A stretch of 21,851 nucleotides of DNA, taken from assembly GCA_030620115.1 (NCBI GenBank), contig JAUXFG010000060.1, positions 1 through 21,851 on the forward strand. The letters run 5' to 3'. The notes below the pieces were generated by a model. That model made no database searches and was not told where the DNA came from. It saw only the letters and a program-made list of their open reading frames with translations. The position numbers and the translations under genes are program-made. The number at the start of each line of letters is the position of its first letter. Position 1 is the first letter of the stretch. This document shows, one piece after another, positions 1 to 17,861 of the stretch. The DNA comes from Candidatus Fermentibacterota bacterium (GTDB lineage: Bacteria > JAFGKV01).

Positions 1-341
1 CACGGCGTTGTCATACATAGCCGGGAGCCAGGCTACGCCCTGACAGAGCCGAGGTCTTCAATCACAAGCCTCGCATTCAGAACCATTTCGGCGGTTTCGC
101 TTCGAAACCCGGAGAGAAGTCCGGGCTGGTGGGGCCACCCGCCCGCCCCTCGATTCTGCCCGGGACAGGCCGGCGGAAACGTTCAACATCGAACATTCAA
201 CATCGAACGTCGAACCATAGGAACAAAGAACGCGCAACCAACTTCTGATCTCTTCCACTTCGGCGTTGGACGTTCGATGTTCGATGTTGGATGTTTGTCT
301 TTCCTGGAAAGGCTCTCGACACTAGATGGAGAGGTTCAGAG
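1..341. other. Gene-free left edge with inverted heptamer arrays
   Basis: I see no gene I can support here. Plus frame 1 is open from base 1 to a TGA at 343-345, but the conceptual peptide runs straight through the heptamer repeats and resembles no family I know. It could hold the last codons of a gene entering from the left, perhaps ending near position 40, but nothing decides this. The right half (181-299) is the inverted heptamer array listed separately. A purine-rich ribosome binding site for the next gene lies at 328-334. Confidence 0.5.
181..299. repeat. Inverted pair of 7-nt-periodic arrays (family A)
   Basis: The left arm, 181-215, is five consecutive heptamers: GTTCAAC, ATCGAAC, ATTCAAC, ATCGAAC, GTCGAAC. 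The right arm, 265-299, is five heptamers in the opposite sense: GTTGGAC, GTTCGAT, GTTCGAT, GTTGGAT, GTTTGTC. The arms are near reverse complements separated by about 50 nt, so a long imperfect hairpin is possible. The ATG at 291 lies inside the right arm. Related arrays occur at 13977-14011 and 16044-16129. The period is exact while individual units vary, which fits a short tandem heptamer repeat rather than a palindromic transposon end. Confidence 0.85.
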
Positions 342-1229
342 TTGAAGTTACGGGTCAGGCTGCGCTGTCCCTCGTGCGGAGAAGTGGATGCCAAGGCGCT
401 TTTTTCGGCACGGCTCGGGCATGGCGATGACCACAGCTGCTATGGCTCCAGGAGATTGGGGAGACCAAACCCCCACGGTGCGATCTATGTCTGCCCGGTC
501 TGCGGGTGGGGAATCACCGAACCCATGCCCACTGGCGAAGAGCTGGCGGATCGGTACGGCGCCATGCCGGAACCAGGCTACTTGAAGGATGGCGACGTCC
601 GAATGGTGCAGTTTCGGGCTGAGCTCAAGACGCTCATCTCGCTACTCCCGAAAAAACCAACATCGCTCCTTGACGTGGGTTGCTCGTATGGACTCATGCT
701 CAAGGCCGCGCAGGAGCTGGGCATTGCCTCGTTGGGCCTCGAGTTGGCCGAGGATCAGGTGGCCTGGTGTCACGCCTCGGAGCTCAACGTACGAAGGGGA
801 GGGCTGGAGAAACTCGAAGCCCACGAGGCATTCGACATCGTTATCCTGTGGGACATTCTCGAGCACCTGCCTGATCCTTCAGGCGCGCTGACACGAATTC
901 ACCGGCATATGCCCAAAGGCGGCATCATTTCTCTTGTGGTTCCGGACCGAGATTCGTTTATAGCACGGCTTCTAGGAGAAAGGTGGTGGTCAATACTCGA
1001 ACTCCACCTCCACTATCCGACCAAGAAGGGTCTCAGGAATGTGCTCGCAGGCGCCGGGTTCATGCCGATCTACGTTGGCACCCATCCAAAGCTCGTCTCT
1101 CTTCAACAGGTGGCCCGGTGGCTCCCGGGAGCCTGGCTCAGGGGGGCGGCAGTCAGGGTATTACCGCGTTCTCTCCGCCTCACGGTGGATCCGAAAGACC
1201 AATTGCTGATACGAGCCCGCGCGGAGTGA
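342..1229 (+). CDS. SAM-dependent methyltransferase with N-terminal zinc ribbon
   Basis: Predicted class I SAM-dependent methyltransferase of 295 residues. The N-terminus carries two CPxC knuckles (C9/C12 and C51/C54), a likely zinc ribbon. Next comes the SAM-binding motif I LLDVGCSYG (about 109-117), an acidic residue ending strand 2 near E134, and WDILEHLPDP (about 170-179), typical of Methyltransf_11/23 enzymes found in glycan and O-antigen clusters. I chose TTG at 342 because GGAGAGG (328-334) lies 7 nt upstream. The in-frame ATG at 291 sits inside a repeat and has no ribosome binding site. Substrate is unknown; a sugar or lipid-linked glycan is likely from context. A repeat-rich gap separates it from the operon downstream. 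Cytoplasmic. Confidence 0.85.
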   Translation: MKLRVRLRCPSCGEVDAKALFSARLGHGDDHSCYGSRRLGRPNPHGAIYVCPVCGWGITEPMPTGEELADRYGAMPEPGYLKDGDVRMVQFRAELKTLISLLPKKPTSLLDVGCSYGLMLKAAQELGIASLGLELAEDQVAWCHASELNVRRGGLEKLEAHEAFDIVILWDILEHLPDPSGALTRIHRHMPKGGIISLVVPDRDSFIARLLGERWWSILELHLHYPTKKGLRNVLAGAGFMPIYVGTHPKLVSLQQVARWLPGAWLRGAAVRVLPRSLRLTVDPKDQLLIRARAE

Positions 1230-1245
1230 CCCGAGACCTCCATAG

Positions 1246-1298
1246 GGCGGCCTCTCGCCGCAATCCGCCGGCTGGCGGATCAGAAGTCAGAGGTCAGC
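1246..1298 (+). repeat. Family C repeat: two hairpins plus heptamers (copy 1)
   Basis: This 53-nt element starts with a small hairpin (GCGGC, loop, GCCGC). It continues with a stem-loop of ATCCGCC and GGCGGAT around the loop GGCT, and ends with AGAAGTC-type heptamers. The reverse complement of 6835-6894 matches it at 49 of 53 positions by eye, with one additional heptamer in the other copy. The two copies are inverted and flank the block 1653-6646. Confidence 0.85.
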
Positions 1299-1652: not shown

Positions 1653-2387
1653 ATGACAGTTCACAAACCAACCATATCGGCCTTCTTCCCCACCTACAAC
1701 GAGTTGGAGAACCTTCCAATCATCGTGCAAGACATGCGTGGTGTCTTGGACGACCTGTCGCGGGACTGGGAGATCATTATCGTTGATGATGGATCCACCG
1801 ACGGAACATCCGATCTGGCCGATTCCCTTAGCCGGAAAGATCCACGAGTCCGTGTCGTGCATCATCCACAGAACATGGGCTTCGGCGCCGCCATGCGGAG
1901 CGGCATCGAGGCCTCGCGCATGGAACTGATCTTCTACACTGACTCAGACAACCAGTTCGACGTGCAAGAACTGGCCCAATTCCTTCCCCAAATGGAGAAT
2001 GCCGATCTTGTCGTCGGTTATCGTGTCAAGCGGCAGGATCCATCGATCCGGCTCTTCGTGGCCCGGGTCTACAATCTCATCATTCGCGTGCTCTTTGGAT
2101 TGAGAGTCAAGGACATCGACTGTTCGTTCAAGCTGGGAACACGCGAACTGCTTCAGAGTTTCAGGCTGTATGCCAACACCGGCCTCGGCGATGCCGAACT
2201 CCTCCTCAAGGCGCAACGTCGCGGCGCCAGGATCATCGAGCTCCCGGTGAAACACTTCCACCGTACGCTTGGCAACGTAAGCTATGAGCTGGCAAGCAGC
2301 CGCCGTCTCGGCCTCGTCCGGCTCTCGGTGCCGCTAAGAATCTTCGCTGAGATTGCCAAGCTGTGGGGTGAGTTGAGGAACGGCTGA
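1653..2387 (+). CDS. DPM-like family 2 glycosyltransferase (copy A)
   Basis: Predicted 244-residue GT-A fold enzyme of the dolichyl/polyprenyl-phosphate mannose synthase type. Such enzymes transfer a sugar from a nucleotide donor to polyprenyl phosphate at the inner membrane face. Visible motifs are the N-terminal PTYNELENL, the nucleotide-binding VDDGSTDGT (about 44-52), the DxD-type metal motif DSD at 97-99, and DCSFKL, typical of this family. No C-terminal membrane segments are present, so this is the short soluble form. I prefer ATG 1653 because GAGAGA lies 6 nt upstream; ATG 1647 and 1620 are in frame alternatives. It opens the operon, ends 2 nt before the first radical SAM gene, and is a paralogue of the gene at 5174. 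Confidence 0.88.
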   Translation: MTVHKPTISAFFPTYNELENLPIIVQDMRGVLDDLSRDWEIIIVDDGSTDGTSDLADSLSRKDPRVRVVHHPQNMGFGAAMRSGIEASRMELIFYTDSDNQFDVQELAQFLPQMENADLVVGYRVKRQDPSIRLFVARVYNLIIRVLFGLRVKDIDCSFKLGTRELLQSFRLYANTGLGDAELLLKAQRRGARIIELPVKHFHRTLGNVSYELASSRRLGLVRLSVPLRIFAEIAKLWGELRNG

Positions 2388-2389
2388 CC

Positions 2390-3751
2390 ATGGCTCGTCT
2401 GCTTCTCGTGTTTCCAGAGACAAGGTACAAGAACGGCCAACTTCCCTTAGGGATCGCCTATGCGGGCGCCAGTCTCGAGGAGGCCGGCCATGATGTCACT
2501 CTCATTGATCTTGCACACGTGCGCAGGCCGTTCCAGGCACTGGGCACACTGCTCAAGGACACGAGATTCGATTTGGTCGGCGTCTCGGTAGTCACCATCC
2601 ATGTCACAGTTGCCCGCGAGGTGAGCACGCTGGTGAAGAAACTTTCGCCTGGGAGTCTGGTGGTATGGGGCGGTGCCCATGCAACAGTCATGCCAGAGGA
2701 ATCGGCCATGCTCCCTGACGTCGACATAGTGGTCAGAGGCGAAGCCGAGCTGGTGCTTCCCCGGCTGGCATCAGATCCCACCAGACGAGACCTGCCGGGG
2801 CTGGTCTACCAAGACAACGGCACGGTATACAATTCCGGTCCCCCGGAACCAGTGGAAGATCTGGACTCCGTGCCATTCCCTGCAAGGCGCCTACTCCCCA
2901 TGGAGAGCTACCTGAAGTACTGGTACTCCCTCGATGCGATCTCGCCCACGATCCGTGGAACCGGCATCATGGCAAGCCGCGGTTGTCCGTACCGATGCAG
3001 CTTCTGCCAGCCAACACTCTCGATGCTTTTTGGAAAAAAGATCAGAAAACGCTCCCCCGAAAACATTGCGGCGGAGCTTGAATCCCTGAAGCGCGACTAC
3101 CGCATAGAAGGCTTCATGTTTGAAGATTCGACCTTCGTGCTCGACCGGCAGTGGGTGCTTCAGGTTTGTGAGGCGATTCGTGACATGAAACTGAAGTGGT
3201 GCTGTAACATCCGAGCTGACCTTGTTGATGAGGATCTCCTCGCGGCCATGGCCAAGGCGGGCCTGAGCAAGGTGAATATCGGGATTGAATCCGCCGTACA
3301 AGAGATCCTTGACGCGGCATATCAGAAGCAGATCACCATCCAACAGGTAGATGATACCGTAGCGTGGAGCAAGAAGCTGGGGCTCAAGGTGCAGGGATAC
3401 TTCATCCTCGGGGCGCCCATCGAGCGAAAAGAAGATATGCTGGAAACCATTCGTTATGCCGCACGGCTCGATATCGACGATGCAGTATTCGACATCGCCA
3501 CACCCTTTCCACAGACGAACATGTATAAGATGTGGAGTCAGTACGTCACCACGGATTTCGCCAACTTCGATTGTTTTCACAAGAGCGTGTTCAGGAATCT
3601 CCATGGTGTCTCCCAGAGTTGGATCGAGCGGCAGAAAAAGCTGGCATACTACCGCTTCTACCTCCATCCGAAACGCTGGCGCTACGTGTCCCGCATGCTC
3701 CTCTCCCCTACCGGTCTGGGCAGGACATTCATGAAGGCGAAGCGCGTATGA
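2390..3751 (+). CDS. B12-binding radical SAM enzyme 1
   Basis: Predicted cobalamin-dependent radical SAM protein of 453 residues. An N-terminal B12-binding Rossmann-like domain (about 1-130) shows LPLGIAYAGASLEEAGHDV, VVWGGAHATVMPEE and VVRGEAE. The radical SAM domain carries the 4Fe-4S cluster cysteines in SRGCPYRCSFC (C199, C203, C206). The classical DxHxxG cobalamin motif is absent, as is usual for class B radical SAM methyltransferases and their relatives. Likely roles are methylation of an unactivated carbon or another carbon-centred rearrangement on a lipid or sugar; the substrate is unknown. It starts 2 nt after copy A of the GT2 and overlaps the next radical SAM gene by ATGA, suggesting translational coupling. 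Confidence 0.9.
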   Translation: MARLLLVFPETRYKNGQLPLGIAYAGASLEEAGHDVTLIDLAHVRRPFQALGTLLKDTRFDLVGVSVVTIHVTVAREVSTLVKKLSPGSLVVWGGAHATVMPEESAMLPDVDIVVRGEAELVLPRLASDPTRRDLPGLVYQDNGTVYNSGPPEPVEDLDSVPFPARRLLPMESYLKYWYSLDAISPTIRGTGIMASRGCPYRCSFCQPTLSMLFGKKIRKRSPENIAAELESLKRDYRIEGFMFEDSTFVLDRQWVLQVCEAIRDMKLKWCCNIRADLVDEDLLAAMAKAGLSKVNIGIESAVQEILDAAYQKQITIQQVDDTVAWSKKLGLKVQGYFILGAPIERKEDMLETIRYAARLDIDDAVFDIATPFPQTNMYKMWSQYVTTDFANFDCFHKSVFRNLHGVSQSWIERQKKLAYYRFYLHPKRWRYVSRMLLSPTGLGRTFMKAKRV

Positions 3752-5172
3752 AGGTTCTCTTCGTGGTCCATGACTGCCTCACCATGCCATTGGGTATTGG
3801 GTATCTTGGCGCGGTGGCGAAAAAGGCCGGTCATGAGGTACGATTGGGCGCCCTCCTCCACGGCGATGTGGTGGGCCTGGCCAAGGACTACGGCGCGGAT
3901 CTCGTGGGCTTCACCGCAACCACCGGCTTTCACAAGAAGTACCTCACTCTCGCCAAAGAACTGAAAAACGTTCTCCCCGAAACACTTGTCGTCATGGGTG
4001 GTGCACATCCTACCTTCTTCCCGGAAGACATCGAGAGCTCTCCATCTTTGGATGCCATCTGCGTGGGAGAAGGCGAGGAGGCGCTCGTGGAGTTCCTCGA
4101 TGCGCTGGAACACGATAGGGATCACACATCCGTGGCGAACTTCTGGGTCAGATCGGGGAATCGGATTCTTCGTAACAGACTGCGACCACGCATCGAGAAT
4201 TTGGACAGTATTCCCTTTCCCGACCGGACATTGTGGCATCCCTACGAGAAACAGATGCATTTCAAGACACCATTCGTCATGGCGGGAAGAGGCTGCCCAT
4301 ACAGGTGCTCGTACTGCTTCAACCATGCATACAACAAACTGTACGACTTCGATGGGCTGATGATCCGGAGAAGGTCCGTTGGCAATGTGATCGCCGAGCT
4401 GCTTGATCTGAAGGGTTCATATCCTGTGGAGCTCGTCGTTTTTCAGGATGACATCTTCATCCTGGACAGTGAATGGGTACGGGAATTCAGTAAGGAATAC
4501 CGCGAGAAAATCGGCATTCCATTCCACTGCCATCTCCGGGCGAATCTCGTGAACGAGGAGATCGTCGAGTCACTTGCCGATGCGGGATGTATCAGCATCA
4601 AGATGGCCATTGAATCCGCAGACGACTTCATTCGAAATGACATTCTCAAACGGGGCATGAGCCGCGAACAGATACACGACGCGACGTCTCTGGTACGAGA
4701 AGCGGGCATCGTGCTCGTGACGCAAAACATCCTGGGTAACCCTAATGAGACATTGGAGCAGGCGATAGATACGCTCAGATTGAATATTCAGTGCAAGCCT
4801 GGCTATGCATTCGCCACCCTCCTCCAGCCGTATCCCAAGACCGAGATCGGGGAATACGTCAAGAACCAGGGACTGCTTGAAGATACGGCGGGGGACTTCG
4901 ACCACTCGTCCTTCTTTGACGGCACGGTTCTCAAGACATCGCATAGACGGGAGATGGAGCGGCTCCGTATGATCTTCCCGCTGGTGGTCGAATGTCCTTT
5001 TCTGCTTCGCTTTGTGCGTACGCTGATCCGTCTACCTCTGGATCCTCTTTATGCCTTGTTGGACAAGCTATGGAAAGGATTCGCCGTGAAACACCGAGAA
5101 ATGCGCTATCGACTTACCTTGAGGGAATATCTCAGATCCTTGAAAACCTATCTGTCAACAGGATACTACTGA
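3748..5172 (+). CDS. B12-binding radical SAM enzyme 2
   Basis: Second cobalamin-binding radical SAM protein, 474 residues, homologous along its length to the preceding one. The B12-binding domain shows MPLGIGYLGAVAKKAGHEV, VVMGGAHPTFFPED and VGEGEEALVEF. The cluster motif is GRGCPYRCSYC with cysteines at about 183, 187 and 190, followed by FNHAYNKLYD. Start is the ATG of the ATGA overlap with the upstream stop; much longer in-frame extensions upstream only read through the previous gene. The next gene starts one base after its stop. Two adjacent, diverged enzymes suggest two sequential steps or two positions on one substrate (inference). Confidence 0.9.
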   Translation: MKVLFVVHDCLTMPLGIGYLGAVAKKAGHEVRLGALLHGDVVGLAKDYGADLVGFTATTGFHKKYLTLAKELKNVLPETLVVMGGAHPTFFPEDIESSPSLDAICVGEGEEALVEFLDALEHDRDHTSVANFWVRSGNRILRNRLRPRIENLDSIPFPDRTLWHPYEKQMHFKTPFVMAGRGCPYRCSYCFNHAYNKLYDFDGLMIRRRSVGNVIAELLDLKGSYPVELVVFQDDIFILDSEWVREFSKEYREKIGIPFHCHLRANLVNEEIVESLADAGCISIKMAIESADDFIRNDILKRGMSREQIHDATSLVREAGIVLVTQNILGNPNETLEQAIDTLRLNIQCKPGYAFATLLQPYPKTEIGEYVKNQGLLEDTAGDFDHSSFFDGTVLKTSHRREMERLRMIFPLVVECPFLLRFVRTLIRLPLDPLYALLDKLWKGFAVKHREMRYRLTLREYLRSLKTYLSTGYY

Positions 5173-5173
5173 C

Positions 5174-5896
5174 ATGCATCTGAACAACCCTTCCATGGGC
5201 GCAGGAAGCCTCTCTGTGATCATGCCCGCGTACAATGAGGAGGGGAACATAGTCCAGGCCATAGAGGAGTGCCTGGAACATCTTCCCCATTGGGGCCACC
5301 GCTTCGAGGTGGTTATCGTTGACGACTGCTCCACGGATAGAACCAGGCAACTCGCCCAGGAGATGGCCGATCGGAACGCAGCGGTTCGTCTCGTCTCAAA
5401 CGAGCGGAACATGGGATTGGGTGGCTCGCTACGGAAAGGATTTGCCGTCACCGCCGGGGAGTATGTTTTCTACACGGATTCCGACCTTCCGATCTACATG
5501 AATGATCTCCTGAAGGCCCTGCCCCTTATGGAGAAGTATGACTTCGTGGCGGGTTGCCGCTTGAACCGCGATGAAGGCCCCCTCCGATTCATCTACTCGC
5601 GCTTGTACAACGCATTGGTGCGCGCACTCTTCTCCATCCCCATAAGGGATGTGAACTTCTCTTTCAAACTCATGAAACGTCGCGTGTTGGCTGCGGTGGA
5701 TCTTCGTTCCGATGGCTCATTCATCGACGTCGAGCTTCTGGCAGAAACGCAAAGACACGGCTTCACCATGACAGATATCGGTGTGCGCTATCGTTCTCGG
5801 GTGTGGGGAGAATCCACCCTTGCCTCACTCTCGGTGATACGTGGGATTCTCGTCGAGCTGTATGAGTACAAATGGGGTCGGATGAAACGTGCCTAG
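5174..5896 (+). CDS. DPM-like family 2 glycosyltransferase (copy B)
   Basis: Predicted 240-residue polyprenyl-phosphate glycosyltransferase, paralogous to the gene at 1653. It has MPAYNEEGNI near the N-terminus, VDDCSTDRT (about 49-57), the metal motif DSD at 102-104, and NFSFKLMKRR, which aligns with DCSFKL of copy A. The N-terminus is about 10 residues longer than in copy A. There are no membrane helices. ATG 5174 lies one base after the radical SAM stop, so translation is probably coupled; no strong ribosome binding site is visible. With the two radical SAM genes it forms a symmetrical GT2, rSAM, rSAM, GT2 unit. Its TAG stop is in frame with the downstream methyltransferase. Confidence 0.88.
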   Translation: MHLNNPSMGAGSLSVIMPAYNEEGNIVQAIEECLEHLPHWGHRFEVVIVDDCSTDRTRQLAQEMADRNAAVRLVSNERNMGLGGSLRKGFAVTAGEYVFYTDSDLPIYMNDLLKALPLMEKYDFVAGCRLNRDEGPLRFIYSRLYNALVRALFSIPIRDVNFSFKLMKRRVLAAVDLRSDGSFIDVELLAETQRHGFTMTDIGVRYRSRVWGESTLASLSVIRGILVELYEYKWGRMKRA

Positions 5897-6016
5897 CCCG
5901 AAACTTCCTCGGGAGCTTCGTCGATCCCAAGTGAAGTCTCTAACCCTGAATGGTCCCACTGGTTGGCGGGCGGCGCCACAAGCCCGGATTCCACTGCCAC
6001 ATCCAGGGCGGGTTTC

Positions 6017-6646
6017 ATGCTAAGAGTCCTGACCGCCTATGCAAAGGCGGGCCTCTGGCCATTCTTCAGAGCTCTGATCAGGTTTCTCTCCGTCCCCTTG
6101 GCACGGGTTGCCGAGCACATGCCCGAACATGGCGTTATCATAGATGTCGGAAGCGGACAGGGCCACTTCCTCCTCTACTGCGCTCACCGGGGCTTCAGGA
6201 AACTGGTGGGCATCGAGCCAAGCCTAGACGGTCTCAGACGCGCGAGAGCAGTTCTGCCTGATACCGTTCTGCTTGCACAGGGACGCGCACAATCGCTGCC
6301 CATAAGCCGTTGCGCCGCAGTGACGGCTCTCGACGTCATGTATCTTGTCGATCCCGCGGGGCAGGAAGTTTTCCTTGCCCGAGTCTTCGAACTCCTCGAA
6401 CCGGGCGGCGTGCTGCTTCTGAAAACCATGGACCCAAGTCGAAGACTCCGCCAGTTCGTCAATACTCTTCAGGAGACATTGGCAGTGAAGGTTCTGGGCA
6501 TCACACTTGGTGGAGAGTTTCACTTTCGTCGTGCCGAAGAATGGGTCACCTTATGCGAGCGCAGCGGTTTCATCGCTAAAGCAGTACCGCTTTGGCATGG
6601 CTATCTACATCCACATCTCCTCATCGTCGCGGTTCGTCCGAGGTGA
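6017..6646 (+). CDS. SAM-dependent methyltransferase
   Basis: Predicted class I SAM-dependent methyltransferase of about 209 residues. Motif I is IIDVGSGQGHF (about 41-51), followed by LVGIEPS, where E67 would bind the SAM ribose. A late motif LLEPGGVLLLKTMDP is typical of Methyltransf_11/25 families. There is no zinc ribbon, unlike the enzyme at 342. Start is uncertain: ATG 6017 and TTG 5963 are in frame, neither has a convincing ribosome binding site, and the frame is open back to the TAG of the upstream glycosyltransferase at 5894-5896. It is the last gene of the block and probably modifies the same product. Substrate unknown. Confidence 0.8.
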   Translation: MLRVLTAYAKAGLWPFFRALIRFLSVPLARVAEHMPEHGVIIDVGSGQGHFLLYCAHRGFRKLVGIEPSLDGLRRARAVLPDTVLLAQGRAQSLPISRCAAVTALDVMYLVDPAGQEVFLARVFELLEPGGVLLLKTMDPSRRLRQFVNTLQETLAVKVLGITLGGEFHFRRAEEWVTLCERSGFIAKAVPLWHGYLHPHLLIVAVRPR

Positions 6647-6834: not shown

Positions 6835-6894
6835 GCTGACCTCTGACTTCTGACTTCTGATCCGCCAACCGGCGGATCGCGGCCGGAGGCCGCC
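6835..6894 (-). repeat. Family C repeat: two hairpins plus heptamers (copy 2, inverted)
   Basis: This is the inverted copy of 1246-1298. On the plus strand it reads as three TGACTTC-type heptamers, then GATCCGCC (6859-6866), loop AACC, GGCGGATC (6871-6878), then GCGGCC/GGCCGC around GGA. By eye it differs from copy 1 at four positions and by one additional heptamer. Confidence 0.85.
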
Positions 6895-6941
6895 ATAGGG
6901 GCAGTCATACGTGACAGATCTCTGAATAGAGGAGGATGAAG

Positions 6942-7883
6942 GTGAGAGCACTCATCACAGGCGGAGCCGGATTCATTGGGTCGCATATTCAGGACGCCAT
7001 GCTCCGCAAGGGCTTTGAGACCGCAATTGTGGACGACCTTTCCACCGGACATCGGGAAAACGTACATGCCTCGTCCATATTCCATGAACTCGATATCAGG
7101 GACGAAAGGCTCCAGGAGATATTCGCGGAATTCCGACCCACTGTAGTGTTCCATCTTGCCGCCCAGATGGACGTTCGCCGCTCGGTCCGAGAACCCATGT
7201 ACGATGCTGATGTCAATATTGTCGGTTCGATCAAGCTCTTGGAGCTTTGCCGCCGATACGAGACGAAGCGGGTCATCTACGCTTCCACGGGAGGCGCGAT
7301 CTATGGTGAACCGGAGTATATGCCCGCGGATGAGAATCACCCGATCAGCCCGGTCTGCCAGTATGGCATTTCGAAGCACACCGTGGAGCATTACTTGGAA
7401 CTGTACCATAAGAACTATGATCTTTCTTACTTATCGCTTCGTTTCCCCAATGTCTATGGGCCGAGGCAGGATCCCCACGGCGAGGCCGGCGTGGTTGCCA
7501 TATTCAGCCTCCTCATGTTGGAGGGAAAGCAAGCAACGATCTTTGGGAACGGGGAAAAAACCAGGGATTATGTGTTCGTGAAAGACATAGTCGCCGCATG
7601 TGAGATCGCCCTCGACACCGATAGAGTCGGCGTCTACAACCTCGGCTGGGGCAAAGAAGTCACTGACTATACGATATTCGATACGGTGAGAAGACATGTC
7701 GGCTGCGACATTGACCCGATCTATGCCCCGATTCGGTTGGGCGAGGTCAACAGGATCTGTCTTGACGCAACACGAGCATGCCGGGAGCTCGGATGGGAGC
7801 CAACCGTGAGCCTCGACAACGGGATCGCCGAGGCGGTGGTTTACTACCGCCACCATCACAGCCGATTCAAGGCATCCGCGTGA
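6942..7883 (+). CDS. NAD-dependent epimerase/dehydratase (UDP-glucose 4-epimerase-like)
   Basis: Predicted extended short-chain dehydrogenase acting on a nucleotide sugar, 313 residues. The NAD-binding loop is GGAGFIGSH (about 7-15). The catalytic YxxxK is Y141/K145 in YGISKHTVEHY, with S115/T116 upstream, and DVRRSVREP and RFPNVYGPRQ are typical of GalE-like enzymes. I chose GTG 6942 because GAGGAGG (6929-6935) lies 6 nt upstream; the ATG at 6936 directly abuts that site and would add only two residues. It would supply an epimerised or dehydrated nucleotide sugar for the glycosyltransferases around it. Its TGA overlaps or abuts the GT39 start. The exact substrate cannot be read from the sequence. 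Confidence 0.88.
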   Translation: MRALITGGAGFIGSHIQDAMLRKGFETAIVDDLSTGHRENVHASSIFHELDIRDERLQEIFAEFRPTVVFHLAAQMDVRRSVREPMYDADVNIVGSIKLLELCRRYETKRVIYASTGGAIYGEPEYMPADENHPISPVCQYGISKHTVEHYLELYHKNYDLSYLSLRFPNVYGPRQDPHGEAGVVAIFSLLMLEGKQATIFGNGEKTRDYVFVKDIVAACEIALDTDRVGVYNLGWGKEVTDYTIFDTVRRHVGCDIDPIYAPIRLGEVNRICLDATRACRELGWEPTVSLDNGIAEAVVYYRHHHSRFKASA

Positions 7884-7885
7884 AT

Positions 7886-9217
7886 ATGCCGGGGATTGGG
7901 AAAACGGCTCTGGAAGCCCACCCGGTCCGCGGTGTGTTTCTTATTGCTCTCGTAGTCCGAGTATTGCTGCTGCCGGTGGGTCTGCATCGACCACTCGGTG
8001 AAGCCCTATTCTTTCTGGACGCCGGGAGGAATATCGCCGCGGGCAAGGGATTCTGTTTGTCCGCGTCCCTCCTCCATCCGCCGGATGGCGCCTCTCCCCT
8101 CGTCCGGCAGACACTCGAGCACTGGCGGACCAGGGGAGGGATCTGGGGCGTCGTTCCACCGGAGGAGCCCACCGCATTTCTGCCACCCCTGTACCCGCTT
8201 CTGCTCGCACTCCTGCATCTTCTATTCGGATCGAGCCTTCTGGTTCCGAGGCTTGTGGGGATTGGCATGGGGGCTGCCACGGCAGTCTTGGCCTATCATC
8301 TCTCGAGCCTGATTGCGGGGAAAAAGTCCGGGCTCATCGCAGGCCTCCTTCTGGCTTTCCATCCGGTGGCCGCATTCCATTCGGTGGAGATCTCAACTCA
8401 TCAGCTTGCAGCTCTTACATTGCTTCTGCCATTGTGGTATCTCGCACGGGGAAGGATTGATCTCCGAAGATCCGTGATGAGCGGGGCCCTGATTGGCGTG
8501 GCATTCCTCGCGCGCCCCACGAGCTGGATGCTCCTGCCTCTTGTGGGAGCCTGGATCCTCTTGAAGCAGAGATCCGCTCGACTGGCACTCGGTCTCCTGG
8601 CCGGCGCGCTCTTGGTCTCTGCACCGTGGGTACTCAGAAACACAGTCTCAATGGGCCAGCCCTTGTTCTTCACCACCAATGGCGGCAGGAATCTCTGGGA
8701 ATTCAACAATCAGAAACTGGCGCCGGAATACTCCTGGTCGGAGCCCCGAGCCAGCAGATGGATGTACGACCCCATCCGTGACAAGTACCGAGAGGTCCTC
8801 AAGAAACGAGAGTGTGTGCCCTTTCCCTCGTTTTCGGATGAACCGGAATGGCAACGCGACAAGATACTCACCCATCGTTTTCTGTGTTTCATACAGGCCA
8901 ACCCGGTGGTATACATTCGGCTCGTGGGCGTCAGGATAAACCAGATCTTCGGAATCTGGCCTCTCCATTACGGGCAAGCAATCCGCGCGGCATTCTCAGC
9001 CTATCTTCTGCCCTTTCTCGTCTTCGGCATCACAGGATGCTGGATGGGATTTCAACGCGGCGGCCTGGCCAGGGTAATGGCGCTATTCACATTCGCCTTC
9101 CTTGCCCTCCACGCTTTGACCGCTGCGGGGCTGGTATATCGAGGAATGATCTCTCCGCTGCTGGCGATAAGCGCCTCCATGGCGCTCACCACTCCACGCA
9201 GAACTGCTCGCAACTAA
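7886..9217 (+). CDS. GT39/ArnT-like membrane glycosyltransferase
   Basis: Predicted polytopic GT-C glycosyltransferase of 443 residues, of the PMT/ArnT kind that uses polyprenyl-phosphate sugars at the outer face of the inner membrane. A first hydrophobic segment (about 16-32) is followed by a loop with the sequence FFLDAGRNIAAGKG, where D45 sits at the usual catalytic-acid position. Roughly eight to ten more hydrophobic segments follow, for example LYPLLLALLHLLFG and LALGLLAGALLVSAPWVL. ATG 7886 is 2 nt after the epimerase stop; GTG 7880, overlapping that stop, is an alternative. The two DPM-like enzymes upstream could make its lipid-linked donor. Its TAA shares bases with the stop of the convergent phosphodiesterase gene. 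Confidence 0.83.
   Translation: MPGIGKTALEAHPVRGVFLIALVVRVLLLPVGLHRPLGEALFFLDAGRNIAAGKGFCLSASLLHPPDGASPLVRQTLEHWRTRGGIWGVVPPEEPTAFLPPLYPLLLALLHLLFGSSLLVPRLVGIGMGAATAVLAYHLSSLIAGKKSGLIAGLLLAFHPVAAFHSVEISTHQLAALTLLLPLWYLARGRIDLRRSVMSGALIGVAFLARPTSWMLLPLVGAWILLKQRSARLALGLLAGALLVSAPWVLRNTVSMGQPLFFTTNGGRNLWEFNNQKLAPEYSWSEPRASRWMYDPIRDKYREVLKKRECVPFPSFSDEPEWQRDKILTHRFLCFIQANPVVYIRLVGVRINQIFGIWPLHYGQAIRAAFSAYLLPFLVFGITGCWMGFQRGGLARVMALFTFAFLALHALTAAGLVYRGMISPLLAISASMALTTPRRTARN
9214..9217. other. Shared convergent stop codons
   Basis: CTAA holds the TAA of the plus-strand glycosyltransferase (9215-9217) and the TAG of the minus-strand phosphodiesterase (9216-9214). There is no room for a terminator between the genes, so their transcripts must overlap. 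Confidence 0.9.
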
Positions 9218-10845
9218 AGATAGCCGAGCCCCCGCAGTCGTTCTTCCAATCCTTCACGCTCCTCTTGAGAAAGCTCCCTCGCCACGGATTTGGCATGGGA
9301 TTCCGAATCCGGCTGTGCAGGGGCCGCCTTCAGAATGCGCTCCGTGAGCATGGCATCCAATATCACACCATCCACGTCTGGAGGAATGGACAAATCCAAG
9401 AGCCTGCACATGGTGGGCATCACATCCATGAGCCGCGCACCGGATATCTCGCCTGCCCGGATGTCGGGCCCCCTGGCAAGCAGAATGCCGTCATAGGCGT
9501 GGTTTCCGGTTGCAATGCCCGGGGGGTTGAATGAATCCTGATAATGGCTCTTTGGGAAAAAGTAAAAGTGATAGCGCTCATCGAACTCGGTAATCAGGAG
9601 ATCGGGCGCGTATTCCAAGAACGGCCCCGAATAGACCTCCTCTCGCCGCTGCACTCGGAAGATTACCCGTTGTCCCGTGGCGGGATCGCACGTCTTCTGA
9701 AGCCTCTCGATGAGCTCCGATCGCAGGGACTCATAGTCTGAGGCCGGAACGATACCATATGGTTCACGGCCCTGAAGGTTTAAAAAAACGCCATTGGTGA
9801 TCAGGCAGAAGGCTCGCGTGCGCGACCAATCGGTAATCGATCCCGCGCCCTGCAATCGATTCCCCGATTCGAGGCTGTCCACAAAACCACGCTTGAGGCC
9901 GAACGGCCTGGCAATCTTCGCCAGATGATGCCTCTTGAGACCGAGCCTGTGCAACGGTCTACCCACGATATCAAAGAATCCCCTTCCACCTCTGGCCACG
10001 AAGTAACCCATCTCGGCCAGCAGATTGTTCATGTCGACCCTGGAGTGAAGGGCGTTGAAGCCGTGATCGCTCACCACAAGGAGATTCGTGTCGTCCCCTG
10101 CCAGGGAAGCCAGACACGCCACGCTATGATCTATCTTCTCGTATAGACTCAGTACACGCTGGTGAAGCTGCTCCCCTTCATCCGGGATCGCGCCGTCCAC
10201 GCCGATCCATTTCCACAGGCTGTGCTGGATACGATCAGGAGCAACAAGAACCACCACGCCAAAATCCCATGGCTCACGCTGGAGCACCCACTGGAAGACC
10301 TCGTCTTGCTGATCCATCATGGCTTCGAGGTCGGAGAGCATTCGATCACGTTCAGCCGGCTGATACTCGGCCCATGACAAATCCAGCCTGTATGGCCCGA
10401 AGCGCTCTTCGATTTCCGCAGCCAGCGAGGCAGGAAAAGTGAAACGGGTGGTCTTCGAAGGCGTGAGCGCACCACAGACCACCGTGCCCTTGAGCTCAGG
10501 CGGAGGGTAGGAAATGGGCATGTTCAGGAGCGCTGTTCGTACTCCCTTGGCATTGGCAAGATCCCAGATGGTGGTTCCGGAGAGGGTATGATAGCCCACC
10601 GGTTCGAGCCCTTTGAAATCCATCGTTCTCCGTTCGAGATCATAATTCGAGTGCTTCCCCGGATTGGTGCCGGTCATGAAACTGCTCCACCCAGGACCTG
10701 TATAAGGGGGATCAGATGATCTCAGAATGCCATGGGCGCCTTCTGCCATGAGCGTACCAAGAAACGGGAGACGGCCATCCCGAGCGAGGAGTTCGAGTAC
10801 AGAGAACGTTGCTCCATCAAGCCCAATGACCATAAGACGGGGCAT
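9214..10845 (-). CDS. Alkaline-phosphatase-superfamily phosphodiesterase
   Basis: Predicted soluble 543-residue enzyme of the type I phosphodiesterase/nucleotide pyrophosphatase branch of the alkaline phosphatase superfamily. The first metal aspartate is in VIGLDGATF (D10) and the likely nucleophile is T49 in PPYTGPGWSSF. Further metal ligands are seen in APDRIQH, VVSDHGF and GNHAYDG. The C-terminus EERLRGLGYL is a tail I remember from this subfamily. No signal peptide or membrane helix is obvious, so a cytoplasmic location is likely. ATG 10845 has AGGTGA 6 nt upstream. It is the last gene of a lipoprotein, flippase, phosphodiesterase series and may cleave or transfer a phosphate-linked group of the glycan (inference). 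Confidence 0.85.
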   Translation of the reverse strand: MPRLMVIGLDGATFSVLELLARDGRLPFLGTLMAEGAHGILRSSDPPYTGPGWSSFMTGTNPGKHSNYDLERRTMDFKGLEPVGYHTLSGTTIWDLANAKGVRTALLNMPISYPPPELKGTVVCGALTPSKTTRFTFPASLAAEIEERFGPYRLDLSWAEYQPAERDRMLSDLEAMMDQQDEVFQWVLQREPWDFGVVVLVAPDRIQHSLWKWIGVDGAIPDEGEQLHQRVLSLYEKIDHSVACLASLAGDDTNLLVVSDHGFNALHSRVDMNNLLAEMGYFVARGGRGFFDIVGRPLHRLGLKRHHLAKIARPFGLKRGFVDSLESGNRLQGAGSITDWSRTRAFCLITNGVFLNLQGREPYGIVPASDYESLRSELIERLQKTCDPATGQRVIFRVQRREEVYSGPFLEYAPDLLITEFDERYHFYFFPKSHYQDSFNPPGIATGNHAYDGILLARGPDIRAGEISGARLMDVMPTMCRLLDLSIPPDVDGVILDAMLTERILKAAPAQPDSESHAKSVARELSQEEREGLEERLRGLGYL

Positions 10846-14994: not shown

Positions 14995-15014
14995 GGGCAC
15001 GGCATGCCGTGCCC
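14995..15014. repeat. Perfect 20-bp palindrome
   Basis: GGGCACGGCATGCCGTGCCC is its own reverse complement. It is flanked by GTAG on the left and by AC on the right. I recall GTAGGGGC...GCCC palindromes as dispersed repeats in candidate-phylum genomes. It lies about 130 nt upstream of the aldolase start and could also be an operator, but its resemblance to dispersed repeats makes that less likely. Confidence 0.8.
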
Positions 15015-15140
15015 ACCCGAGGCGTAGTCCGGCATACTGCGCGGGATAAAGAATATGGGATGTCAGGATGTGAAGCTATTTCTACGCGAGCCCTAAACCG
15101 ACAGCGGATGGCGGAAAACTCTTGCAACAAAGGAGTACTG

Positions 15141-15986
15141 ATGTCTGAAACCACAACCAGAGCTCCCCTCCGAGGAGCAGCCAACATGAGTTGGGGAATG
15201 AAGAACCGCCTCTCTAGACTCATTCAACCTGACGGACACTGCTTTTTTCTCCCTATTGATCATGGCTACTTCCTTGGGCCCACCCGATGTCTGGAAGAGC
15301 CCGCAAAGACTATCGAGCCGCTCCTTCCTTGGGCGGATGGGTTATTCGTGACCCGGGGCGTGCTTCGTGCCGCAATACCTGCCGATTGCGGCGTCCCCAT
15401 CATCCTCCGCGTCTCAGGAGGAACAAGCATCTCCGGGCATGATCTTGCTGACGAGACCCTGGTGGCCACCATCGAAGAGATCATCCGGTGTAATGCAACG
15501 GCCGTGGGCGTATCGGTATTCGTGGGCAGCGATTACGAGAAGCAGACGCTCGAGAACCTCGCGGATCTTGTGAGCATGTGCGAAGGCTACGAGATTCCCG
15601 TAATGGCCGTGACCGCAGTGGGCAAGGAGCTGGAGAAACGCGCTGCCCGCTATTTGGCACTGGCCTGCAGAATAGCAGCCGAACTCGGTGCACGAGTAGT
15701 GAAGACCTACTATGCAGCCGAAGACTTCGAGACCGTCACCAACGGCTGCCCCGTTCCCGTGGTGATGGCCGGGGGACCGAAATGCAAGACCGATTTGGAG
15801 GTCTTCGAGTTCGTGTACGACGGGATACAGAGGGGGGCCATCGGGGTGAATCTCGGGCGCAACGTGTGGCAGAATCCACATCCGGTGGCGATCATGCGGG
15901 CGCTTTACGCGGTGATCCACGAGAAGGCCACGCCGAAGCAGGCCCACGAGGTCTTCCAGGAGATAAAGGAGGGCAGTGCAGCATAG
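15141..15986 (+). CDS. LsrF-like class I aldolase/thiolase (DeoC/DhnA family)
   Basis: Predicted 281-residue TIM-barrel Schiff-base aldolase. The sequence follows LsrF closely: LPIDHGYFLGPT (D40), TRGVLR, RVSGGTSIS, GSDYEKQ, VTAVGKE, then VVKTYY, with K188 as the likely Schiff-base lysine, and NGCPVPVVMAGGPK plus GVNLGRNVWQ. LsrF acts on the phosphorylated autoinducer-2 derivative 3-hydroxy-5-phosphonooxypentane-2,4-dione, but no other lsr gene is nearby, so the real substrate may be another ketose phosphate; ADH-synthase-like enzymes of the same family are an alternative. ATG 15141 has AAAGGAG 5 nt upstream. It sits with a zinc dehydrogenase and a class II aldolase, which suggests a short pathway on a phosphorylated sugar. 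Confidence 0.87.
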   Translation: MSETTTRAPLRGAANMSWGMKNRLSRLIQPDGHCFFLPIDHGYFLGPTRCLEEPAKTIEPLLPWADGLFVTRGVLRAAIPADCGVPIILRVSGGTSISGHDLADETLVATIEEIIRCNATAVGVSVFVGSDYEKQTLENLADLVSMCEGYEIPVMAVTAVGKELEKRAARYLALACRIAAELGARVVKTYYAAEDFETVTNGCPVPVVMAGGPKCKTDLEVFEFVYDGIQRGAIGVNLGRNVWQNPHPVAIMRALYAVIHEKATPKQAHEVFQEIKEGSAA

Positions 15987-16206
15987 GCGCTTGGTGGATA
16001 GACCCCGCCAAGGGGGGGCTGTCGATTTGCAGACTTGCGAGAAACTCAACATCGAACATCCAATGGAAGAGCCTCACTTCGACATTGGGCGTTGGACGTT
16101 TCCTCCAGCCGGCGGATTCGATGTTTGACCGCGACCATGGGCAGGGGGTGATCTTCTCCCTGGGATCCCTCTCCCATCACCCCATTCTCCGGAAAGGAGA
16201 TGACGC
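15987..16206. other. Intergenic gap with interrupted family A array
   Basis: About 220 nt. Heptamers ACTCAAC, ATCGAAC and ATCCAAT (16044-16064) face ATTGGGC and GTTGGAC (16084-16097). The array is then broken by a CCTCCAGCCGGCGG insertion and resumes as ATTCGAT and GTTTGAC (16116-16129). The insertion contains CCGGCGGAT, half of the family C hairpin. The ribosome binding site AAAGGAG for the next gene is at 16193-16199. Confidence 0.75.
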
Positions 16207-17235
16207 ATGCGTGTGGCCATGTGGTACAATAATCGGGATGTACGCTCAGAAGAGATGCCCATTCCGGAGATCGGGCCTGATGAGATGTTGCTCCGCGTGG
16301 TGGCAAGCGGTCTCTGCGGTTCGGACGGGCTGGAATGGTATCGGCTTCATCGTGCGCCCCTTGTTCTTGGTCACGAGGTAGCCGGCGAGATCGTCGAAGT
16401 CGGCTCAGCGGTGACCAAGTACCGCGAAGGAGATCGGGTATCGGTTGCACACCATGTCCCGTGCAATACGTGCCGATACTGCCTGAGCGATCATCATAGC
16501 TGCTGCGCCACGCTGCAGTCCACCAACTTCTTTCCGGGCGGTTTCTCCGAGTATATCCGCGTGCCTGCCCTCAACGTTGATAGAGGGACCTTCCGTTTGC
16601 CTGATCATGTCTCGTATGAGGATGCGACATTTGTGGAACCGCTGGCCTGCGTGTACCGAGGGCTACGCAAGGCAAAGGTCCGTCCCGGGCAATCGGTACT
16701 GGTAATCGGCTGCGGCATTTCGGCCCAGCTCATGATCATGACGGCACGCGCCATGGGCGCCGGGAGAATCATTGCCATGGACAATATCCCCTTCCGGCTC
16801 GACATGGCGCTTCGCAACGGCGCCGATGCAATCATCGACTCGGAGGAACACGCTCTCGACCGACTGAAGGAGCTCAACCATGGCAGACTGGTGGACCGGG
16901 TCATCATCAATCGTCCGCTCATCTCTTTGGCGCTCAAGGCGGTGGAAAAAGGAGGTACGATCCTCTTTTTCGCAGGAGCGGAGGACCCAACAGAGAAAAT
17001 CGAGATACCCTGGAATGACATCTTCTGGCGGACCGAGGTGACACTCATCAGCTCATACGCGGGTCCGCCCGTAGACTCCGAGTCTGCGCTTTCACTCATT
17101 GCCGCGGAGCGCGTCCCGGTGAATTCCATGATCACGCATAGGCTGCCATTGGCCGAGCTCGGCCGCGGTATCGAGATGCTCACGCACCCATGGGAACATG
17201 AGTCCATGAAGATCGTGATAGAATGCCAGAGATAG
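16207..17235 (+). CDS. Zinc-dependent alcohol dehydrogenase (sorbitol/threonine DH type)
   Basis: Predicted medium-chain dehydrogenase of 342 residues oxidising or reducing a polyol, sugar or amino-alcohol with NAD(P). Catalytic zinc ligands are C37 in GLCGSD, H56/E57 in LGHEVAG, and E144 in VEPLACVY. The structural zinc site is CNTCRYCLSDHHSCC (C86, C89, C92, C100). The nucleotide-binding loop is VIGCGISAQ. ATG 16207 lies 7 nt after AAAGGAG. Its 3' end overlaps the class II aldolase start by 13 nt, so the two are probably coupled. Together with the LsrF-like aldolase it suggests oxidation or reduction of a sugar phosphate followed or preceded by aldol cleavage (inference). Confidence 0.88.
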   Translation: MRVAMWYNNRDVRSEEMPIPEIGPDEMLLRVVASGLCGSDGLEWYRLHRAPLVLGHEVAGEIVEVGSAVTKYREGDRVSVAHHVPCNTCRYCLSDHHSCCATLQSTNFFPGGFSEYIRVPALNVDRGTFRLPDHVSYEDATFVEPLACVYRGLRKAKVRPGQSVLVIGCGISAQLMIMTARAMGAGRIIAMDNIPFRLDMALRNGADAIIDSEEHALDRLKELNHGRLVDRVIINRPLISLALKAVEKGGTILFFAGAEDPTEKIEIPWNDIFWRTEVTLISSYAGPPVDSESALSLIAAERVPVNSMITHRLPLAELGRGIEMLTHPWEHESMKIVIECQR

Positions 17236-17861
17236 CATGCGGGCGAACCCATGACCCGCGCCAACAGGCATTGAGGGAGAAGATGCGCCATTTCGGGCGC
17301 AAGCTCATCCTCCATGGCCTCACCCATTCCCAAGTAGGCAACATGTCGATCAGGGAAGGGGACACGATCCTTATCTCCCGAAGTGGAAGCATGCTGGATG
17401 AGCTAGCGGACGAGATGATTGTCGAGATAGGCCTGGATGGCCAGTCCTCCACCGATGCAACTGCCTCATCAGATGCAAGGATTCACCGGGCGATCTATCA
17501 GGCCACATCGGCCCAGGCGATCATACACACTCATTCCCCCTTTGCAGTGGCCGAGGCACTGATCACTCCCGGCTCAAGAATCGTGTCGCACGATATCGAG
17601 ACCAAGAAGGTGCTCGGTCAAATCCCCTTGGTTTCAGGGGATCTGGAACTCCTGGAACTGGCCAAGGAGTGCGCCCGCATCCTGCGCAAGAATAGAGCCC
17701 TGATCATCAGGGGGCATGGATCTATCGCGGCGGCAGACTCTCTTGAGGAGGCCTACTTGTACGCATGTAGTGTGGAGCACGCCTGCAAGGTGCGACATCT
17801 CTGCAGGCGTGCCGGCCATCTCGCAGCGACTGAAACGGAAAGCCGGAATCAGTCGCGATAG
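17223..17861 (+). CDS. Class II aldolase/adducin family (fuculose-phosphate aldolase-like)
   Basis: Predicted zinc-dependent aldolase of 212 residues. The N-terminal helix leads to VGNMSIREGD, matching GNxSxR of the family. The zinc site is HTHSP (H102, H104) with H165 in RGHGSIAAADSLEEAYLYA. At the place of the catalytic glutamate (E73 in L-fuculose-1-phosphate aldolase, usually in SSE) this protein has D84 in SSDARIH. The start at 17223 overlaps the dehydrogenase gene by 13 nt; ATG 17283 has a GAGGGA site but would leave a short first helix. It probably cleaves or forms a phosphorylated sugar to dihydroxyacetone phosphate plus an aldehyde. The 3' end overlaps the convergent gene by 13 nt. 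Confidence 0.85.
   Translation: MPEIACGRTHDPRQQALREKMRHFGRKLILHGLTHSQVGNMSIREGDTILISRSGSMLDELADEMIVEIGLDGQSSTDATASSDARIHRAIYQATSAQAIIHTHSPFAVAEALITPGSRIVSHDIETKKVLGQIPLVSGDLELLELAKECARILRKNRALIIRGHGSIAAADSLEEAYLYACSVEHACKVRHLCRRAGHLAATETESRNQSR

Follow-up and report, generated by a model that had tools for sequence, protein, structure and literature searches.

Few cobalamin-dependent radical S-adenosylmethionine (SAM) enzymes are known that do not methylate, and two radical SAM systems with an established action on the head-group sugars of lipids, those for the hopanoid cyclitol ether and for calditol, both yield distinctive membrane lipids. For the hopanoid cyclitol ether the required set consists of hpnI, hpnK and hpnJ (PMC5462960), and formation of the calditol head group on a Sulfolobus membrane lipid requires a radical SAM protein, calditol synthase (Cds; PMC8941075). 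Here, we describe a gene block in a stretch of 21,851 nucleotides (nt; hereafter the window, positions 1 to 21,851 of the forward strand of contig JAUXFG010000060.1, assembly GCA_030620115.1) of a Candidatus Fermentibacterota bacterium. Its core comprises two genes for predicted B12-binding radical SAM enzymes, RSa and RSb, flanked by two genes for putative glycosyltransferases of family 2 (GT2), GTa and GTb. We assign a probability of about one half to reading the block as an operon for an envelope glycan or a glycolipid, in which a lipid-linked sugar is made, altered by radical chemistry and then transferred to an acceptor outside. Literature searches gave no description of a pathway with this arrangement, as had been surmised in a first-pass annotation of the window.

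Conservation of the block and its predicted enzymes

The four core genes lie on the plus strand in the order GTa-RSa-RSb-GTb, with a gap of 2 nt, an overlap of 4 nt and a gap of 1 nt at the successive junctions, exactly as initially annotated. The quartet itself spans 1653-5896, and the range 1653-6646 initially given also covers a fifth gene, MT2. Moreover, the four genes do not form a unit by themselves, but sit inside a wider block of eight genes (Table 1). We compared three genomes of the window's phylum, that is, the window genome (G000) and its two kin G001 and G002. In the locus labelled Candidatus Fermentibacteria (L012/L079) the genes MT1-GTa-RSa-RSb-GTb-MT2-EPI-GT39 follow in the same order with protein identities of 49, 74, 70, 72, 62, 54, 72 and 52%, respectively; the ATGA overlap of RSa and RSb is retained, and in L079 MT1 and GTa overlap by 4 nt. 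In the locus labelled Candidatus Eisenbacteria (L013/L080) the contig starts within RSa, and RSa-RSb-GTb-MT2-EPI-GT39 is retained. As G001 and G002 represent one genus, the gene order is demonstrated for two genera of one family. Thus, the proposal of a tightly coupled unit is borne out by order and spacing, both of which are kept in another genus of this family, and the arrangement is more than chance. Beyond this family, neither the 80 named RSa loci nor those RSb neighbourhoods that were read contained the quartet. Two related genes carry in-frame stop codons, namely TAG in the G315 relative of RSb (L070:4694-6109) and a single TGA in the G002 GTb (L080:2643-3338); each may stem from faulty assembly or from a true lesion.

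By their predicted cofactor use, RSa and RSb are cobalamin-dependent radical SAM enzymes. The B12-binding and Radical_SAM domains of both proteins score 69-76 bits (Pfam cut-offs 29-32), and the CxxxCxxC cysteines are invariant in 40 RSa homologues as well as in five aligned RSb sequences. Neither protein reaches the cut-off of any curated family, and both fall into clades of their own. Of the two outcomes named in advance as refuting the first-pass annotation, namely a four-gene order absent from other genomes and radical SAM proteins assignable to a well-characterised unrelated family, neither was observed. The best family score of RSa was obtained with the HpnJ model TIGR03471 (RSa 177 and RSb 124 bits, cut-off 577.6), followed by the BchE model TIGR02026 (171 and 123 bits, cut-off 481). 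Membership in HpnJ is ruled out by score and by tree, and membership in BchE by score. A search for HpnJ at E <= 1e-130 yielded no match in G000, G001 or G002. RSa represents an undescribed family that occurs in both bacteria and archaea. The structure model of RSa (predicted local distance difference test, pLDDT, 93.6) matched AprD4 best (Z 34.2, root-mean-square deviation 2.6 over 402 residues, 23% identity), with MgmA at Z 32.1; the matches to AprD4, MgmA, CysS, OxsB and TsrM span Z 29-34 over 380-422 residues. HpnJ, BchE and Cds were not among the matches listed, so that the fold search has no bearing on these three. The model of RSb, built from five sequences, was too poor (pLDDT 67) and was set aside.

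GTa and GTb appear to be two subtypes of DPMS-like GT2 enzymes, for which sugar transfer to polyprenyl phosphate is predicted. Their nearest solved structures are ArnC, GtrB (sll0501) and DPMS, a likeness that agrees with their first assignment as polyprenyl-phosphate glycosyltransferases. At the position of the DxDxQ motif GTa carries DSDNQ and GTb DSDLP; the latter is retained in the kin and is similar in some relatives. In addition, we observed that type I phosphodiesterases like the one encoded in the window (PDE, 9214-10845) repeatedly adjoin GT2 genes in other genomes (L180, L197, L225 and L113), the GT2 being GTa-like in three cases.

Table 1. Genes of the conserved block, with positions in the window
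Gene	Position	Strand	Predicted product	Domain scores and remarks
MT1	291..1229	+	class I SAM methyltransferase, cysteine-rich N-terminus	Pfam Methyltransf_23, 78 bits
GTa	1653..2387	+	DPMS/ArnC-like polyprenyl-phosphate GT2, DSDNQ motif	PF00535 100 bits (cut-off 23); alternative start at 1620
RSa	2390..3751	+	B12-binding radical SAM enzyme, CxxxCxxC at residues 199-206	PF02310 and PF04055 over cut-off
RSb	3748..5172	+	second B12-binding radical SAM enzyme, clade apart from RSa	PF02310 and PF04055 over cut-off
GTb	5174..5896	+	second DPMS-like GT2, DSDLP replacing DSDxQ	PF00535 106 bits (cut-off 23)
MT2	5963..6646	+	class I SAM methyltransferase	Pfam Methyltransf_23/25/11; start codon uncertain, TTG used
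EPI	6936..7883	+	NAD-dependent sugar-nucleotide epimerase/dehydratase, GalE-like	PF01370 204 bits; GalE model 181 bits, under the 262 cut-off
GT39	7880..9217	+	PMT_2-type membrane glycosyltransferase; expected donors polyprenyl-phosphate sugars	PF13231 46 bits; start taken as 7880, reading frame open from 7778

Inverted repeats of 58 nt (88%) lie in the block's two larger gaps, at window positions 1240-1297 (plus strand) and 6843-6900 (minus strand). Of this repeat family the window genome contains 32 matches, whereas G001 and G002 contain none; since, moreover, the flanking genes overlap in L079, the repeats look like inserted elements. Further downstream, at 15009-17861, a run of genes encodes an LsrF-type aldolase (356 bits, NCBIfam cut-off 297), a zinc alcohol dehydrogenase and, after it, a class II aldolase, perhaps a sugar-degradation cluster.

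Ancestry of the two gene pairs and the company of RSa

When 76 radical SAM proteins were placed in a tree, separate clades comprised RSb with its relatives (support 100), RSa with almost all of its relatives (98) and the HpnJ sequences (97); the RSa and RSb clades both have relatives in other phyla. The two glycosyltransferases fall into one polyprenyl-phosphate glycosyltransferase subfamily (support 98), in which GTb is part of a 10-row clade (99) that does not contain GTa. As RSa is not sister to RSb, nor GTa to GTb, a tandem duplication of a GT2-radical SAM pair is ruled out. Thus, the mirror symmetry noted in the first annotation is not upheld as a product of duplication: the members of each pair come from separate older lineages, and the separate clades together with the DSDLP and DSDNQ motifs indicate that the mirror image is an assembly of these lineages rather than a duplicated pair. 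The term paralogous still applies to RSa and RSb in its broad sense (approximately 33% identity), though not in that of sister sequences. The HpnJ clade contains two paralogues from the window genome (G000:C130, L006, and G000:C138, L007), a genome in which squalene-hopene cyclase was not found.

A genome scan, in which immediate neighbours were clustered and cluster representatives searched with Pfam, gave 80 RSa loci, among them loci of Fermentibacteria, Zipacnadia/WS1, Anaerolineae, Deltaproteobacteria, Omnitrophota, Nitrospira, Woesearchaeota, Bathyarchaeota and others. At half of them (40/80) a direct neighbour of RSa encodes a GT2 or a PMT_2, YfhO, DUF2079, DUF6541 or PTPS-related membrane protein, a count that rests in part on cluster membership, since some neighbours score below the Pfam cut-off. 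PMT-like proteins use polyprenyl-phosphate sugars, and the YfhO, DUF2079, DUF6541 and PTPS-related neighbours presumably do so as well. The GT2 proteins beside RSa in other phyla belong to other GT2 clades and are not orthologues of GTa, so that the association probably arose repeatedly.

In 17 loci of Fermentibacteria (L087:9362-10093 and 16 similar ones) a YdjC-type gene follows directly downstream of RSa, mostly with a 4-nt overlap. The representative that was scanned lies between membrane glycosyltransferases and matches Pfam YdjC; its best NCBIfam model is HpnK (104 bits, cut-off 233). In those of these loci that were read, a radical SAM protein of the HpnJ clade is encoded a few genes on. 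Another arrangement was observed in a Thermoplasmatota archaeon and two Omnitrophota (L121, L138 and L142), where RSa lies between a preceding gene for an amine-oxidase-type flavoprotein and a following gene for another radical SAM protein.

A same-strand gene for a B12-radical SAM type protein follows RSa at 21 of the 80 loci. These partners represent at least five lineages, namely RSb, its sister group in archaea and Omnitrophota, an Aegiribacteria group, a group from Nitrospira, Omnitrophota and Elusimicrobia, and a Pseudomonadota/Myxococcota pair. In contrast, only one of 26 loci of RSb relatives has a radical SAM gene on either side, a match in L035 having been left out as a fragment of the same gene. 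The difference (Fisher p 0.013) ignores shared ancestry and rests on only 26 comparison loci, some of them incomplete. On the RSa tree the trait requires 10 changes, at least 6 of which are forced by strongly supported branches. Taken together, these results suggest, without proving it, that a second radical enzyme commonly acts alongside RSa. We tentatively consider a general two-step radical module for membrane glycans, in which the RSa family would modify lipid-linked sugars together with an exchangeable downstream B12-radical SAM enzyme, the quartet being one form of it; this extension is possible rather than probable.

Proposed pathway and its rivals

From the gene content we infer substrate, reaction and order of steps as follows. 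EPI would provide a nucleoside diphosphate sugar, and at the cytoplasmic face GTa and GTb would charge polyprenyl phosphate, or a different lipid, with sugars. RSa and RSb may then act in succession on the lipid-linked sugar via hydrogen abstraction, resulting in ring contraction to a cyclitol, which is our first choice, in C-methylation or in 1,2-diol dehydration. MT1 and MT2 would attach conventional methyl groups, and GT39 would pass the modified sugar to the acceptor outside. In favour of this scheme are the gene order and couplings kept in another genus, the match of GTa and GTb to ArnC, GtrB and DPMS together with a PMT_2 protein as the last gene of the operon, and the glycosyltransferase-like neighbours at half of the RSa loci. 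C-methylation or rearrangement of a lipid-linked sugar, as envisaged from the outset, is plausible. The HpnK-like partner in other Fermentibacteria, together with the resemblances of RSa to AprD4 and HpnJ, leads us to lean with modest confidence towards HpnJ-type chemistry.

Several observations weigh against this pathway. RSa and RSb fall outside the HpnJ clade, and the YdjC deacetylase was not found in the window genome or its two kin, which leaves the closest analogy incomplete here. The modelled fold of RSa is silent on the reaction, as AprD4, the methylase MgmA, CysS, OxsB and TsrM are all structural relatives; a fold common to a dehydratase, methylases and a ring-contracting enzyme does not pick one of them. 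Moreover, 18 places in the 4.1-Mb window genome encode RSa-like, that is, B12-radical SAM-like proteins, and glycan loci may bring together genes that are only loosely connected.

RSa and RSb could instead be C-methylases of the finished glycan or of its sugar nucleotides, comparable to GenK in the aminoglycosides, in place of a rearrangement at the lipid stage. Methylation is the commonest reaction of the subclass (PMC13142503), MgmA, TsrM, CysS and TokK are close structural matches of RSa, and the operon holds two further methyltransferases. Nevertheless, we regard this as doubtful, because HpnJ and BchE, which give the best family scores, though far below cut-off, do not methylate, because AprD4, structurally the closest match, is a dehydratase, and because the HpnK-like partner in Fermentibacteria points to HpnJ-type chemistry. 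The same partner, which by its family acts on sugars, also speaks against another alternative, in which the radical enzymes would alter the lipid itself, be it the polyprenyl chain or a membrane lipid, as the glycerol dialkyl glycerol tetraether ring synthase and the tetraether synthase do, and the transferases would glycosylate the altered lipid. There are known radical SAM enzymes that cyclise membrane lipids or join them together (PMC8941075), and RSa occurs in archaea as well as in bacteria. However, the neighbours of RSa are glycan genes and not genes for the lipid core, and a squalene-hopene cyclase is missing from the window genome and its kin, which makes a lipid target unlikely.

The four genes could also be mere neighbours in a glycan locus, with RSa and RSb in different pathways and their packing due to ordinary operon compaction. 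Indeed, RSa homologues frequently occur without RSb among the 80 loci, and in other phyla the two genes lie apart, as in G242 with approximately 52 kb between them on one contig. Yet the order, the 4-nt overlap and the tight spacing persist in another genus, and second radical SAM genes accompany RSa more often than RSb relatives (see the counts above). We thus judge this explanation very unlikely.

Recurring beside polyprenyl-phosphate-type glycosyltransferases, a family as widespread as that of RSa would indicate that uncultured bacteria and archaea possess an unrecorded class of membrane glycans with cyclitol, deoxy or branched sugars. It would also offer candidate enzymes for new radical sugar chemistry.

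Comparison with known systems

The modification of lipid A by ArnC and ArnT resembles the block in that a polyprenyl-phosphate GT2 is paired with a PMT-type membrane transferase, and ArnC is among the best sequence matches of GTa and GTb. However, their ArnC scores (72 and 60 bits, respectively) are far under the cut-off of 529, and the Arn system is not known to include a B12-radical SAM enzyme. AprD4, the paromamine diol dehydratase, shares with the predicted pathway a sugar substrate, the aminosugar paromamine, and is structurally closest to RSa; in contrast, it serves an antibiotic pathway that is not lipid-linked, and RSa reaches 114 bits against an AprD4 family cut-off of 500. Cds is comparable by its reported role to what is proposed for the radical enzymes of the block, but its lipid is an archaeal tetraether.

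The hopanoid system combines a lipid glycosyltransferase with a B12-radical SAM enzyme of the same superfamily, and RSa relatives in Fermentibacteria carry the HpnK-like deacetylase. It differs in that the window operon has two radical SAM genes and in that RSa and RSb score far under the HpnJ cut-off. Hopanoid biosynthesis as the role of the operon is ruled out, as neither the window genome nor its kin gave a match to squalene-hopene cyclase (PF13249), while the control search detected it in Bacillus subtilis. With neither this cyclase nor a YdjC protein in these genomes, the analogy is one of logic and not of hopanoids: with even odds, in our estimate, the operon may follow the scheme of HpnI (transferase), HpnK (deacetylase) and HpnJ (B12-radical SAM enzyme), shifted to a non-hopanoid lipid.

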